Assembly (NCBI GenBank): GCA_020630675.1
Contig: JAHDIR010000030.1
Coordinates: 1-35,463 of the forward strand
Direction of reading: 5' to 3'
Length of the DNA stretch: 35,463 nt
Source of the DNA: Bdellovibrionales bacterium
GTDB lineage: Bacteria; Bdellovibrionota; Bdellovibrionia; Bdellovibrionales; UBA1609
Notes under the pieces: model-generated
Seen by the model: only the letters and a program-made list of their open reading frames with translations
Told to the model about the DNA's origin: nothing
Databases searched by the model: none
Shown: positions 4,328 to 11,595 of the stretch, one piece after another
Layout of the letters: each line of letters opens with the position of its first letter
Position numbering within the stretch: the stretch's first letter is position 1
Made by a program: the position numbers and the translations under genes

Positions 4328-4894
4328 CTAGTTTGCGAAATCAAGCCTAATTTTTTTTCCTGCTAGGCCTAAAACCAACCCCTTTTCTTGCCAAACTTTT
4401 ACAGCAACCCCCGACTGATAAGAATGACCATTTAATAATTTAAGGTTTTTATTAACAAGCTTAGCCTGATATAGGGTATACACCTCTAAGGTTTTTAAAT
4501 TCATTATTTTAATTTGCGCGGCCATCTTACCCTGCAAGCTGCAGTATCTTGCCCCCAAGACCTTCCAATTCGCAGTTGGTAGTTTTGCACTACTAATCAT
4601 TGTAAAATCTAATTTGTTCATTTTTTTTTGCAACACAGACAAGTCTTGAGACTCATATTCAGACGATAAACTTTTCATGTGATTATAAGCAATTTCCGCT
4701 ATTATGTCTTGAGGTGGTGTTTTAAAGTAAAAAAAAGTCAAAAAAAATAGCAAAACAAAGGAAGCTACCAAAGGTGTAGACCACTGAAATAAGAACTTTT
4801 TATTCAGTAAGTTCAGACGATCTAGTTGATGAACACTTAGCTCTTTATTTAAATAATGATTTTTGACAATCTCCTTAAGCTTACCTTGGTTCAT
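4328..4894 (-). CDS. Putative membrane-anchored anti-sigma factor
   Basis: 188 residues: a charged cytoplasmic N-terminus of about 38, one membrane segment (WSTPLVASFVLLFFLTFFYF, about 39-58), then a domain of about 130 residues on the other side of the membrane. Its start overlaps the end of the ECF sigma gene by 14 bases and has GGGAG seven bases upstream. One-pass membrane proteins coupled to an ECF sigma are usually its anti-sigma factor, holding it until an envelope signal arrives. It lacks the HxxxCxxC zinc motif of the zf-HC2/ZAS anti-sigma class; the only cysteine I see is in ARYCSLQ in the distal domain. Function is inferred from context and topology. Confidence 0.6.
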   Translation of the reverse strand: MNQGKLKEIVKNHYLNKELSVHQLDRLNLLNKKFLFQWSTPLVASFVLLFFLTFFYFKTPPQDIIAEIAYNHMKSLSSEYESQDLSVLQKKMNKLDFTMISSAKLPTANWKVLGARYCSLQGKMAAQIKIMNLKTLEVYTLYQAKLVNKNLKLLNGHSYQSGVAVKVWQEKGLVLGLAGKKIRLDFAN

Positions 4895-5327
4895 TATTTT
4901 TCTCCCTCAATTTATTTTTTAATCTAAATAGACGAGATGTTAATGTACCTTTCGGCTGTCCTGTTTCATCGGCAATCTCTTTTAGGGTGTAATCTTCTAC
5001 AGCCCACAAATAAAGTAACTCTCTTTCTTCAGGCCCTAGTCTTGATAATATATCTTTAACCTCAGATTTTTTAATCATTACATCTTCAAGGTCAGAGAGT
5101 TGACTATTTATTTGCAAATCACTGACTAAATCTTCTTTTCTATTTCTTTCATCAAAAAACTTATTGCGAATACATTTTTTTGCATAAGCCACTTTATTTA
5201 AAACAAAGGGACGACCCATAACTTTTTCAACGCCATGAGATACTAAGTCCATAGCCCATTCCTCTTTTTGAGAAAGGCTTAGTGCATATCGATATAATGA
5301 ATTTAATTGGTGTTTTGTATAACTCAA
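4881..5327 (-). CDS. ECF-type RNA polymerase sigma factor
   Basis: 148 residues, somewhat short for the family. Region 2 is the N-terminal half (HQLNSLYRYALSLSQKEEWAMDLV...FVLNKVAYAKKCIRNKFFDE). Region 4 is LSRLGPEERELLYLWAVEDYTLKEIADETGQPKGTLTSRLFRLKNKL, the typical ECF helix-turn-helix. The TTG start at 5327 overlaps the TGA of the preceding secreted-protein gene (TTGA), so translation is probably coupled; there is no strong SD. The downstream overlapping gene is a likely anti-sigma factor. This is a cell-envelope signalling cassette whose first gene may be both target and sensor component. The regulon cannot be told from here. Confidence 0.85.
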   Translation of the reverse strand: MSYTKHQLNSLYRYALSLSQKEEWAMDLVSHGVEKVMGRPFVLNKVAYAKKCIRNKFFDERNRKEDLVSDLQINSQLSDLEDVMIKKSEVKDILSRLGPEERELLYLWAVEDYTLKEIADETGQPKGTLTSRLFRLKNKLREKNNEPR

Positions 5328-6345: not shown

Positions 6346-7011
6346 TCAGTTCACATCAAAAAAATTGAATAACCCTGAACGTTTTTTATTTCTTCGCCGA
6401 GGAGTTGGCTTAGGCCCAGACTCAGTAGCACGAGTGGTGCCAAATAAAAATACTAAATTAACTCCCACCACATGGCTTTGAAAAGAATGGTCTTGAGATA
6501 AGCCACTGACAAGGCCATAATTAAACTTGTATGATCCGACTATATAAAAATTATCTGACATACGGTAATCTAAGCCTATTTTAAGTCCTAAACGATGAAT
6601 GTCGTAATCAACATTCGAAAGCCCTGCTCCAGTACTAGTGGTTTCAGCCATAACATAGTGATAGCTGGCGCCTAGGGAAAGCCTTTTGTAATGCAAACCA
6701 TATTGCAAACCAGGGCTAATATATGTCACGTCTTCAGATTGCGTAGAGTTATTTGCATTATTTTCAAGCTTAGCGTATTCCGCCTGAAACCCAAGGTAAG
6801 TGTGCCAATAGTTTTTTGTTGTTAAGAGGTAATTGAAAGAAATATTAGCCGCAAGACCACCATAGTTAGCAGATGCATCGGTTTCTTTGTTAGTAAGTTC
6901 TGCCTCCACATAACCGGCACCTACTTCAAAATTATGACCTGAATCCATAGCAAACAAAATGGGGCGGTAAAAAAGAAAACTCAAAACAAAGGTCCATAAA
7001 TAAAACCTCAA
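6346..7011 (-). CDS. Small outer-membrane beta-barrel protein
   Basis: 221 residues with a signal peptide (WTFVLSFLFYRPILFA), then alternating aromatic/polar strands typical of an 8-strand barrel: NFEVGAGYVEAEL, YGGLAANISFNYLL, WHTYLGFQAEYAKL, YISPGLQYGLHY, LSLGASYHYVMAET, HRLGLKIGLDYRM, FYIVGSYKFNYGL, SHVVGVNLVFLFG. An odd basic tail (PRRRNKKR) and LFNFFDVN follow the last strand. The start is TTG at 7011 with GGGAG five bases upstream; it overlaps the TGA of the propeller lipoprotein gene (TTGA). The pair may form a unit at the outer membrane. No specific porin or adhesin family is recognised. Confidence 0.75.
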   Translation of the reverse strand: MRFYLWTFVLSFLFYRPILFAMDSGHNFEVGAGYVEAELTNKETDASANYGGLAANISFNYLLTTKNYWHTYLGFQAEYAKLENNANNSTQSEDVTYISPGLQYGLHYKRLSLGASYHYVMAETTSTGAGLSNVDYDIHRLGLKIGLDYRMSDNFYIVGSYKFNYGLVSGLSQDHSFQSHVVGVNLVFLFGTTRATESGPKPTPRRRNKKRSGLFNFFDVN

Positions 7012-7970
7012 TTAGACTCCCCTGAGGTCACGACAATATCAAATACAGAAAGTGTTTGTCCGTCAGCTATGAAAGGTATAGTGCCAATTCTATTTCCATC
7101 TTGATCTAATTGTTCAACAGTGTGACTTGAATAGGCAGCAATTAAAAGGTTTCCGTTGGGTAGTTCTACAATATCTGTAGGATTATTTATTATACTCGTA
7201 TTAGAAGACCAAATAATCGTTGCGTTATTACCATCCGGGTCTGCTCTATAAATTGAGTCATTGGCCCATCGTCCAAAATATAAACTTCCATTGCTATGTA
7301 AGTGAAGGGCATACAGTTGGTTGCCAACATTAACCTGTGATAGGCAGGTCACAGTGTCTCCTGAAATATCAAAGGTTGTTATATTTCCTGAGTTGTAGCC
7401 AGCCACAATTAAATGGTTGTTCTCGGTTAATACTAGCTTTGTTGGAACATTTAATGAGCACCCATCAGCATTTCCTTGAATAAAAGCACTACCTGTCACA
7501 AAAGGCTTTCTTGCTCCACTGGCATCAATTTTTTCAATGTTGTTACTTTCAATTGAGTATACATTTCCCTCACTGTCTCTAACGGCATCATAAATTCCAC
7601 CACTAAAATAATTAGAAGAAAAGAAATCACTGACTTCACCATCTAAGTTCACATACTCCAATTGATCTGGATTTTCTTGTCCAACAATAAAGGTGTCACC
7701 TGAAACATGAGTAATCGAGCGAGGAGTGCCCCCGGTAAAGCGAAAGTCGGTGATAACTTTAATAAAATTACCATCTAAATCATAGGCTGTTACACCCCGA
7801 TGAGAACCATTTCCACTGATTAAAACAATCATGGGTTCGATAGAACTTTCTGTTAAAAAAGAGCCTTCTTTTTTATCACAAGCTTGCGTCAAAAAAAATA
7901 AACTTACGTATATTAAGATAATCTTAATTAGAGAGATTGTTTTAGATAACGTTCCATTTAAATAAATCAC
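7008..7970 (-). CDS. Lipoprotein with NHL/SMP-30-like beta-propeller
   Basis: 320 residues. The N-terminus has a hydrophobic segment ending in LFFLTQAC, a lipobox, so Cys31 or so should be lipidated. The rest has repeated blade-like motifs: VTAYDLDGNFIKVI, EYVNLDGEVSDF, YDAVRDSEGNVYSIE, VLTENNHLIVAGYNSGNITTFD, LHLHSNGSLYFGRW, VELPNGNLLIAAYSSHTVEQLDQDGNRIG. This pattern of xxDGxx turns is typical of six-bladed NHL or SMP-30 type propellers, often used for binding. The start is GTG at 7970 without a good SD, so the N-terminus is uncertain. Its stop overlaps the start of the beta-barrel gene, which suggests a joint function at the outer membrane. Confidence 0.7.
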   Translation of the reverse strand: MIYLNGTLSKTISLIKIILIYVSLFFLTQACDKKEGSFLTESSIEPMIVLISGNGSHRGVTAYDLDGNFIKVITDFRFTGGTPRSITHVSGDTFIVGQENPDQLEYVNLDGEVSDFFSSNYFSGGIYDAVRDSEGNVYSIESNNIEKIDASGARKPFVTGSAFIQGNADGCSLNVPTKLVLTENNHLIVAGYNSGNITTFDISGDTVTCLSQVNVGNQLYALHLHSNGSLYFGRWANDSIYRADPDGNNATIIWSSNTSIINNPTDIVELPNGNLLIAAYSSHTVEQLDQDGNRIGTIPFIADGQTLSVFDIVVTSGESN

Positions 7971-8140: not shown

Positions 8141-9634
8141 ATGAAAACATGTTTTTTCTTAATCACTTTTATTATTAGTTTATTTTTTTACCAGACTAGT
8201 TTTTCTGAACCTTGGATCTCTAATCGCTTTGCTCAAAACTGTGCTGGTTGTCATGCACCTGGTCGCTACAACCTACCTCCGAAAAAAAGACGATGTACTT
8301 TATCATGCCAAGGTTGTCACACTAATCCAAATGGCGGTGGTTTAAGGAACGAATACGGAAAATGGAATCAACAGCGCTGGTTAAAAACATTTCGTATTAA
8401 GAAAAATAAGTTTGATAAAAATGCACCCGCTCCTGATTTTGCACAACACTACATGCAATCAAGTAAAACTCTAAAGGTGGGAAAGAAAAAAGTTAGCGCC
8501 AACAAAAAAATTAAAAAAAGAAGAATTCCCCGCTTAACCACTACCAAGTCACTTGATCATAAAGAAAAATATTACAATCAATATTCAAACAGTGATTGGA
8601 AACAAAATGCTAAATCTAAAAAACAATTTTTAAGTCGAGTTCCTGCGGGCGATCCTTACAGATTGGAAAGAAAAAAACTTTTAACTGGCGGAGCTGACTT
8701 AAGGTATTTTTATGGAAAATTTACCGACGATAGCATTGCCAATGGGGCCGGTGATTTTGATTTAAATGTTTTAATGGGTGCTGATATTGGCTTGCGATTT
8801 AAACCTACAGAAGAGCATTTTTCTATTGTGCTAGAAAATAGATTTTCTGCTAATCCTCGTGCACAGACCGGACTGGTCGACGGAGGATTTCAAAGATCCA
8901 AAGTTAGATCAGCCTATGTACTTTCTGATAATCTGCCCTATAACTCTTGGGTGATGGCTGGAATTTATAGGCCTCAGTTTGGTTATTACACGCCTGACCA
9001 CACATCATTAACTGCCACTCTAACGGGAATGGATCAAGACTCTAGCTATAAAGCCATTGGCGTCGGTTCAGCTCCTAATGTTCCGTTTATTAACTTTCAT
9101 CTTTTAACCAAAAAAGGATATGACGGTGACCGTGGTAGAAATGGTTTAGATAATTTTCAAGATGAAACAGGTTATAATGTGAATGTTGGTGCTCGCTTTG
9201 TAACTTTAGGGCTTAACGCTAAATTTTCTTACTGGAGCACCAGTGGTAAAGATGGCAATAACCCCTTGCTTGAGTTTGACAGGAATATGTATTCCGCCAC
9301 TGGGGGGTTTCGCTTTAAACGTCTCATTGGTAATGTAGAATTTCTAAATTGGACTGTTGATAAAAGTGGGGAAAACTCTGGAGCCGTGGTGACTTTTGAT
9401 TCAAAAACTCAAATTTGGCGAGAAAACTATCTTATTTTTACCAGCTCAAGTGCAAACACAGCAAAAAATGGAAGCCCAGGTAAAGCTAGCGAAATTTCAT
9501 TTGGGTTAAAGAGTTATTTAGCGGCAGGCTTAAAGCTAGATATTATTTATCAAACAAGGTCGGAGAGAGAAGATCAAAACGACGAAACAAGAGATCAAAA
9601 TTTATTTTATATTCAGGCCCATGCTTATTTCTAA
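8141..9634 (+). CDS. Dihaem c-type cytochrome fused to an outer-membrane beta-barrel
   Basis: 497 residues. A signal peptide (to about 22) is followed by two haem c sites, CAGCH (34-38) and CQGCH (56-60). A lysine-rich linker (about 100-180) comes next, then a barrel-like region from about 185 to the end with alternating strands (GADLRYFYGKF, ADIGLRFK, FSIVLENRFSA, YNVNVGARFVTLGLNAKFSYW, FRFKRLIGNVEFLNW, ISFGLKSYLAAGLKLDIIYQ). It ends QAHAYF, with the terminal Phe that the BAM complex recognises in outer-membrane proteins. Covalent haem would need a Ccm system, not seen here. In known porin-cytochrome conduits barrel and cytochrome are separate proteins; here one chain carries both. Electron transfer across the outer membrane is inference. 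AAGG precedes the ATG. Confidence 0.75.
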   Translation: MKTCFFLITFIISLFFYQTSFSEPWISNRFAQNCAGCHAPGRYNLPPKKRRCTLSCQGCHTNPNGGGLRNEYGKWNQQRWLKTFRIKKNKFDKNAPAPDFAQHYMQSSKTLKVGKKKVSANKKIKKRRIPRLTTTKSLDHKEKYYNQYSNSDWKQNAKSKKQFLSRVPAGDPYRLERKKLLTGGADLRYFYGKFTDDSIANGAGDFDLNVLMGADIGLRFKPTEEHFSIVLENRFSANPRAQTGLVDGGFQRSKVRSAYVLSDNLPYNSWVMAGIYRPQFGYYTPDHTSLTATLTGMDQDSSYKAIGVGSAPNVPFINFHLLTKKGYDGDRGRNGLDNFQDETGYNVNVGARFVTLGLNAKFSYWSTSGKDGNNPLLEFDRNMYSATGGFRFKRLIGNVEFLNWTVDKSGENSGAVVTFDSKTQIWRENYLIFTSSSANTAKNGSPGKASEISFGLKSYLAAGLKLDIIYQTRSEREDQNDETRDQNLFYIQAHAYF

Positions 9635-9640
9635 TATTTA

Positions 9641-9672
9641 AAAGCCCAACAAATTTATTGGGCTTTTTTTTT
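9641..9672. terminator. Rho-independent terminator, bidirectional
   Basis: AAAGCCCAA (9641-9649) pairs with TTGGGCTTT (9658-9666) around an 8-base loop and is followed by a run of T. It sits between the convergent cytochrome-barrel and symporter genes. The A-run on the left makes it usable from both strands. Confidence 0.85.
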
Positions 9673-9675
9673 GTT

Positions 9676-11595
9676 CTAGAATATTTTCTCAACACTTACC
9701 AATTTGTCTTTTAAAAAATAAGCTGATTTAAAAGTTTCTTCAGCCATCTTAATTTGCGAATCATTAACATCATCTTTTTGAGTCACTTTGACATGATTAG
9801 ATCGCAAACCACCTAAGAACCAACGACTATCTGTAATATAAACCATATCTTTATCTTCAGCTTTTAGTTGATCTAAATTATTTTTTGAAAGGGCAACCAC
9901 TCCTGCTTTCATTCGAGAATCAATTTTCACAGTCAGATCTGTAACGTTCTTTCCAATGGTATGGTTTGGCTTACCACCTTTATAGTTAGTCATGGCCACA
10001 TCCAGTGTATCAATGGTGAGCCCTTTAACCTTTTCTCTGTTGTCAGCAAAAGCATCTGGCGTGAACCATTTTTGTAAAAACGTTACAAAAACACCAACAA
10101 CACCTGTGATAAGCATGCCATAAAGAGCTCTCATATAAATGTATTGATCATTTTTCGGGCCAGAAACAAACCATGCTAGTCCGTCAATCATTTCAGGGTA
10201 CCATACCGTAAGAATAGTGATTAAACTTCCCGTTAGCATTGAGATACAAGCTGCCAACGACGTAAAGCTTCGCCAAAAGGCTCCCAAAAATATAGTTGTA
10301 ACCACTGAAGGAATAATGATCATGATTCCCTTGTAGTGAATCGACATTAGGCTTCCTTTTTGAGTATTAAACCAAATCACCAACAAAATACCAGTGATAG
10401 TAGTAATCACAGAGGCCCATCGGGCAGCTTTTAAATAATGTGCATCACTGGCTTTTTTATTTACCAAAGGCTTATATAGGTCATAAATACCCACAGCCGC
10501 ACAGGCATTAATTAGGGTGTCAATGGTCGACATAAGGGCTGCCATCAATGCAGAAATAATAAAACCAAACACCCATGCGTTTTGCTTTACAGTCGCCCAA
10601 CAAACCACCAAAAATGTATGAAAAGTGTTATTAATTTCAATTAAATCATAACCAGGAAGAGCACCTAAAGCAGCTTGCTTGGTCATTAAAGCTTTTGCAA
10701 TCCAGCCTATGGCTCCCACAATAATAGCTGAAACAGGCAAAGTAATTAACACATTGAAGAAGGCTGCTTTTCTTCCCTCATCAACACTTTTAATCGTCAA
10801 GTATCTCATGAGAAAACCTTGGTTCATAAAACCAAAGGCAATACTTCCAGCTAAAGCTTCTCCCCAAAACAATCCAGCCGTATTAAATTTTGGATTTTCT
10901 GTGAGGTGAGTAAATGGTAATCGATGAGTTTCAGGCAACCAGCCCCACCATTCGCTAAAACCACCAAGGGCATAAATTCCAGCAAATATAGCCAGAAAAC
11001 CGGCCAAATATAGCATCACACCCTGAAATAAGTCTGTGAAAATAACAGCGGTTTGACCACCAAAAGTAACATACACTCCTATGAATAAACCTAAAATTGG
11101 AACCGAATAAAGTTGAGGTATGCCAAACAACCCTTCCATAGCAATTCCAATGGTATAAAAGTTATAGCCGATATAAAAAAACATATAAGCTAAAATAATC
11201 ACCAAAGAAATATAACGAGCAAAAGAGTTAAATCGACGCTCAAAATACTCTGGCACAGATTTAATGCGTGAAAAATAAATAATCGGTAACCAGCCAAAAA
11301 CAAAAAATGGTATGGCAAACCAATCATTCATATAATTGATCGTGCTGCTCATTCCGGTGTTATAGCCTTGCTGAGAGTATTTTAGAAAACTGTAAGAACC
11401 AATTCCTGTGGCCACCATACTGGCTGCTGGTAACCACCAAGAAAATCTTTGGCCACTGAAGAAAAAATCATTAATGTTATTATTAAACCGAGCAAAGTAA
11501 CTTCCAAAGGCTCGAACAATAAGAACATAAGCTAAACAAACAACACCAACAATGACGACCGCGCGCTGAGATAGGTCTACTCCATCAAATTCCAT
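9676..11595 (-). CDS. Sodium:solute symporter (SSS family) with C-terminal extension
   Basis: 639 residues with 13 or so membrane segments. Family features include FFSGQRFSWWLPAASMVATGIGSYSFL near 43-69 (the sodium-site helix), VYVTFGGQTAVIFTDLFQGVMLY near 174-196, and FIISALMAALMSTIDTLINACAAV, the conserved SSS motif in the later half. The last 120 residues (from about GLTIDTLDVAMTNYKGG) are soluble and not part of the transporter core. The substrate cannot be told. The start codon overlaps the stop of the upstream small membrane gene by one base (TAATG), so the two are coupled. The gene ends facing a strong terminator at 9641-9672. Confidence 0.85.
   Translation of the reverse strand: MEFDGVDLSQRAVVIVGVVCLAYVLIVRAFGSYFARFNNNINDFFFSGQRFSWWLPAASMVATGIGSYSFLKYSQQGYNTGMSSTINYMNDWFAIPFFVFGWLPIIYFSRIKSVPEYFERRFNSFARYISLVIILAYMFFYIGYNFYTIGIAMEGLFGIPQLYSVPILGLFIGVYVTFGGQTAVIFTDLFQGVMLYLAGFLAIFAGIYALGGFSEWWGWLPETHRLPFTHLTENPKFNTAGLFWGEALAGSIAFGFMNQGFLMRYLTIKSVDEGRKAAFFNVLITLPVSAIIVGAIGWIAKALMTKQAALGALPGYDLIEINNTFHTFLVVCWATVKQNAWVFGFIISALMAALMSTIDTLINACAAVGIYDLYKPLVNKKASDAHYLKAARWASVITTITGILLVIWFNTQKGSLMSIHYKGIMIIIPSVVTTIFLGAFWRSFTSLAACISMLTGSLITILTVWYPEMIDGLAWFVSGPKNDQYIYMRALYGMLITGVVGVFVTFLQKWFTPDAFADNREKVKGLTIDTLDVAMTNYKGGKPNHTIGKNVTDLTVKIDSRMKAGVVALSKNNLDQLKAEDKDMVYITDSRWFLGGLRSNHVKVTQKDDVNDSQIKMAEETFKSAYFLKDKLVSVEKIF

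Follow-up and report, generated by a model that had tools for sequence, protein, structure and literature searches.

The question posed by this locus is whether a single polypeptide joins two c-type haem sites to an outer-membrane β-barrel, and what such a chain would do in the cell that makes it. The window, that is the whole stretch of 35,463 nucleotides analysed here from a Bdellovibrionales bacterium, carries the gene in question on its forward strand (Table 1). We propose, with moderate confidence, that the product is a fused cytochrome-porin of the outer membrane carrying two c-type haems, and that electrons move through its haem plug between the periplasm and a small redox partner outside the cell.

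Table 1. Location of the dihaem cytochrome-porin gene, its 3' terminator and the predicted parts of its product (coordinates are those of the window).
Feature	Coordinates	Strand	Basis or remark
Fused dihaem cytochrome-porin gene	8141..9634	+	497 aa, ATG start, intact ORF
Predicted signal peptide, residues 1-22	8141..8206	+	Hydrophobic N-terminus
First haem c motif CAGCH, residues 34-38	8240..8254	+	C34, C37 and H38 invariant 25/25
C52, extra cysteine giving CX3CX2CH	8294..8296	+	Invariant 25/25, absent from one-haem relatives
Second haem c motif CQGCH, residues 56-60, followed by NPNGGGLRNxYGKW	8306..8320	+	Invariant
Lysine-rich linker, residues 86-168	8396..8644	+	24 K/R vs 5 D/E
Predicted 16-strand β-barrel, residues 181-497	8681..9631	+	Profile segmentation, strand phase, one-haem homology
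Predicted extracellular loop L3 between strands 5 and 6, with FGxxxPDHTSL	8981..9046	+	Strand assignment; motif common to the one-haem family
H287 in L3, proposed distal axial haem ligand	8999..9001	+	Invariant 25/25; equivalent kept by 33/33 one-haem relatives
H494, in pore-facing phase on the final strand close to the periplasmic rim; other proposed distal ligand	9620..9622	+	
Intrinsic terminator directly 3' of the gene	9640..9667	+	10-bp stem and T tract

The gene is flanked by a divergent gene upstream (7008-7970) and by a gene on the opposite strand downstream (9676-11595), and therefore stands alone. No conserved operon was found: across 21 neighbourhoods of dihaem genes, every other gene is found in three at most. 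Since the gene has its own terminator and lacks a conserved neighbour, the single chain is the likely working unit. The upstream gene (minus strand) encodes a lipoprotein-like β-propeller with weak matches to lactonase, NHL and Vgb proteins, and a similar β-propeller gene adjoins the dihaem gene in one other genome (G002, locus L059). Further upstream (4881-5327, minus strand) lies a small gene for an ECF-type sigma factor, followed by a short secreted-looking protein. No further ORF with a CXXCH motif exists in the window. A secreted cytochrome is encoded next to the two-haem gene at 6 of the 21 loci, a frequency not clearly above background. In three genomes a gene for a two-CXXCH lipoprotein-like cytochrome is divergent from, and directly adjoins, the dihaem gene (L064:9604-10350, L070:6181-6960 and L075:7051-7764).

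Twenty-five dihaem members, each 36-60% identical to the window protein, were aligned. They share an almost fixed N-terminal block (EPWLSNRFAQNCAACHAPGR..RRCTLSCQGCHVNPNGGGLRNxYGKW), which opens with AEPW or SEPW in nearly all relatives; the mature protein is expected to start near S22/E23-P24, just behind the export signal. The two CXXCH motifs are spaced by 22 residues in every member (25/25), and 20,000 shuffles that kept the composition never produced a pair of such motifs. Among the residues kept in all 25 proteins are C34, C37, H38, C52, C56, C59, H60, H287 and H494. C52 is unpaired and might either ligate a haem or serve the second haem site as a third point of attachment. Matches to MauG and cytochrome c6 span the CXXCH stretch only, and these identities were rejected; so was the GEGP diheme protein family NF041762, which scored 13.2 bits over residues 32-64 vs the 300 bits required. 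The host genome has a cytochrome c assembly gene and a haem-copper oxidase and is thus equipped to make and use c-type haem; pointers to iron oxidation were not seen in it. From the invariant motifs and the assembly gene we predict that haem is covalently bound at both CXXCH sites.

The dihaem family was found in 38 of the 148 nearest genomes and, by profile search, in 40 of 369 Bdellovibrionota genomes, families other than that of the host included, three of the 40 being weak partial matches that proved on inspection to be members of the one-haem family described below. Assembly fragments left out, the gene is present in single copy per genome. One relative (L009:553-2076, minus strand) has an in-frame TGA within the barrel and is either a pseudogene or an assembly error. 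The search beyond Bdellovibrionota consisted of one short-pattern scan of a named genome collection, in which the sole relative was in Bdellovibrionaceae bacterium UBA1609, and of plasmids and viral contigs, in which no relative was found.

Weak matches of this first family search led to a second, larger family with one haem motif. Its members carry a single CXXCH within FPEMIRHGYxNCTACHVSPSGGGxLxxYGR, followed by a barrel homologous to the dihaem one. Comparison of the two profiles gave an hhalign E value of 5.2e-22 with FGxxxPDH aligned on FGxxxPDH, and the same motifs were again aligned when the barrels alone were compared against a larger one-haem set (E 1.2e-11). At E 1e-8 the one-haem profile matches in 198 of 291 sampled Bdellovibrionota genomes, a few of these hits, such as that in the host genome, being the two-haem protein. 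When the whole host genome was searched with this profile, only the gene described here was found, through its second haem block (residues 53-89, E 4.8e-5). The second block is therefore shared, and the first, whose CAGCH is confined to the dihaem family, looks like the addition. The two families have in common the homologous barrel, the second haem block and the PDH histidine of L3, whereas the one-haem proteins (alignments A3 and A6) lack the first CXXCH, C52 and the long linker, and do not keep the H494 equivalent as an invariant residue. A secreted or lipoprotein CXXCH protein is encoded within about 1.5 kb of the one-haem gene at 18 of 30 loci (examples of one-haem genes among L079-L119 are L082:1145-2233, L083:1203-2330 and L115:1417-2595); such a pair is possibly a two-part surface electron-transfer module, seemingly undescribed.

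The C-terminal region of the dihaem protein is of the barrel type. Its segmentation score, obtained with a simple, purpose-written model using approximate residue frequencies, is 33.9 vs 4.6-17.4 for eight column-shuffled controls. The model called 18 strands, which became 16 after pieces in the 265-311 region were joined by hand. The contrast between the two strand phases exceeds that of all 2000 within-strand permutations, a result whose significance is overstated, as the strand limits were set by hand while looking at the pattern. The final residue is Phe, nearly invariant among relatives, and almost all dihaem members end in Q-x-H-x-[YF]-[FY]. Neither the window protein nor any of the 25 dihaem members matches Porin_O_P (PF07396), and profile comparison of the dihaem barrel with solved porins gave no match. 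One one-haem relative (L115, 29.3 bits) passes the Porin_O_P cut-off of 20.9 bits, and the best solved match of the one-haem profile is Porin O (4rjx), at a non-significant E of 0.09. An AF2 model of the full protein built from a two-sequence alignment has a mean pLDDT of 30; that of the equivalent barrel fragment of L002, likewise from two sequences only, reaches 44, with 14 of the 16 strands formed, strands 5 and 6 missing, and values that reach 50-79 in the C-terminal half but stay below 50 in the rest. Foldseek neighbours of this low-confidence model are mostly 16-strand porins, a hint only at TM scores of 0.3-0.4 (below 0.42) and large rmsd. A closed barrel is thus supported by homology and strand pattern and not by a confident structure model.

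These results confirm what the sequence-only reading observed and support its interpretation in part. Its two N-terminal haem motifs and its strand-rich region ending in Phe hold, and its union of a haem c domain with an outer-membrane barrel is well supported through conservation, strand analysis and homology to a one-haem family with Porin_O_P affinity. The homologues with the same two parts that it suggested looking for exist as a conserved family with both CXXCH motifs and a barrel-like region. Structure prediction, which it had also suggested, formed 14 of the 16 predicted strands, at low confidence, in the L002 fragment. Its lysine-rich linker is present here and retained as a linker throughout the relatives (68-128 aa), but lysine richness is kept only in part (7 to 28 K/R).

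The linker is the starting point for another explanation, a solute porin whose dihaem domain hangs free in the periplasm on a flexible lysine-rich tether and serves as an electron shuttle or redox sensor outside the pore. The variable length and frequent lysine richness of the linker, and its shortness in one-haem relatives, would fit a tether, but such an arrangement leaves the invariant barrel residues H287 and H494 unexplained, and we consider it quite unlikely. Exactly four histidines are invariant in the 25 dihaem members: those of the two CXXCH motifs, H287 and H494. Each haem requires a proximal and a distal ligand, so four is the number expected for two bis-histidine haems, and we infer that these residues may be that ligand set. 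The third extracellular loop of 16-strand porins folds into the lumen, and L3 carries H287. Another invariant residue, M212, was considered as a ligand and rejected, as it lies in the lipid-facing phase of strand 2. In 33 one-haem members the CXXCH histidine and the PDH histidine of L3 are invariant, and the C-terminal -4 position, equivalent to H494, is His in 22. A rule of one barrel histidine per haem is nevertheless not clean: a narrower set of 24 one-haem members also keeps a histidine in a predicted periplasmic turn (H344 of A6), the -4 histidine is frequent in the one-haem set, and C52 is an alternative ligand. The same surplus of invariant candidate ligands (C52, H287 and H494) would allow one haem to be unusually ligated, as in an outer-membrane haem-gated channel or a haem enzyme (a peroxidase, for instance, or a sensor of nitric oxide or oxygen) that leaves one haem free to bind a ligand; however, outside the CXXCH stretch the protein does not resemble MauG, peroxidases or sensor families, and this explanation is very unlikely in our judgement.

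For the fused cytochrome-porin that we prefer, the following route is proposed. The protein would be exported through Sec and acquire its haems in the periplasm by means of the Ccm machinery. The 16 C-terminal strands would be inserted in the outer membrane, with the small dihaem domain at the N-terminus plugging the periplasmic mouth of the pore. The distal ligands of the two haems would be H287, carried into the lumen by L3, and, at the periplasmic rim, H494, so that the haems would be lined up from this rim to mid-pore. Electrons would then be exchanged between a cytochrome c of the periplasm and a small, soluble redox-active compound entering the pore from outside, with iron, chelated iron, a quinone or a flavin as candidates and either direction of flow conceivable. 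The dihaem protein is probably, in short, a compact electron wire. If the electrons ran outward, the same pore might act as a reductase of ferric iron or another metal for uptake, in which chelated Fe(III) is reduced in the pore and Fe(II) enters the periplasm for assimilation. This class of barrel is widespread in a mostly heterotrophic phylum, where energy from iron oxidation would be improbable, and one family member has a weak match to the siderophore porin LbtU (E 0.00093); conserved iron-uptake neighbours, on the other hand, are lacking, and we regard a role in uptake as unlikely.

A broader proposal can be made tentatively, and we hold it to be somewhat less probable than not. The two families may form a Bdellovibrionota-wide class of single-chain cytochrome-porins in which the L3 histidine binds a haem at the constriction and the histidine of the C-terminal strand binds a second one at the periplasmic rim, making a two-step wire and an evolutionary series from one haem to two. 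Bdellovibrionota are best known as predators of other bacteria. If the cytochrome-porin reading is right, they commonly carry a minimal one-gene electron route at the outer membrane, at the genome frequencies given above for the one-haem and two-haem forms; the two-haem form would rank among the smallest multihaem outer-membrane conduits, and point mutation of its four invariant histidines would be a direct test of the plug-in-barrel model for fused cytochrome-porins.

Several known systems place haem at or through an outer-membrane barrel. MtrCAB, MtoAB, PioAB and the Pcc complexes do so with separate proteins, a 26-strand barrel and many haems. Magnetotactic Bdellovibrionota are reported to have homologues of MtrA and MtrB (PMC13200544). 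A complex of the MtrB/PioB type was rejected here, as the host genome has no gene matching MtrB_PioB (PF11854) and the window no separate CXXCH ORF. The phosphate-selective OprO/OprP porins of the Porin_O_P family represent the probable barrel type, an affinity reached via the one-haem relatives; they carry no haem. In the literature searched, with most subscription journals outside it, we found no account of fused cytochrome-porins with two haems, nor of either family in Bdellovibrionota, which is weak evidence that they are new.

The sequence-only reading had held that known conduits use separate proteins and that a one-chain version would be new. This does not stand, since Cyc2, already characterised, joins a monohaem cytochrome to a porin of 16 predicted strands and has been shown to oxidise iron (PMC8406198), and it had been named a fused porin-cytochrome with the cytochrome as plug, Cyt572 being a relative of the same plan (PMC5566968). 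Common to both are one chain, an N-terminal c-type cytochrome as the proposed plug and a C-terminal barrel, of about 16 strands by prediction, with OprO/OprP affinity. That the dihaem protein is an ordinary member of the Cyc2 iron-oxidase family is nonetheless highly improbable. It shares with Cyc2 the order of CXXCH domain and barrel, and 23 of the 25 members keep an A/S-x-P...R...CXXCH remnant upstream of the first motif, but all 25 have two CXXCH motifs vs the single one of Cyc2, and the features by which Cyc2 is identified, AXPXFAR[QK][TY] and PXL (PMC8406198), are found upstream of CXXCH and four residues after it, respectively, in none (0/25 each). Given the extra haem and the lack of these motifs, the dihaem protein is not filed as Cyc2; by analogy, we propose that it may work like Cyc2 without belonging to that family. 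The one-chain design is known from Cyc2, the form with two haems and fixed histidines seems not to have been described before, and the protein differs from the known one-chain conduits in haem number, sequence family, phylum and the invariant histidines of its barrel.
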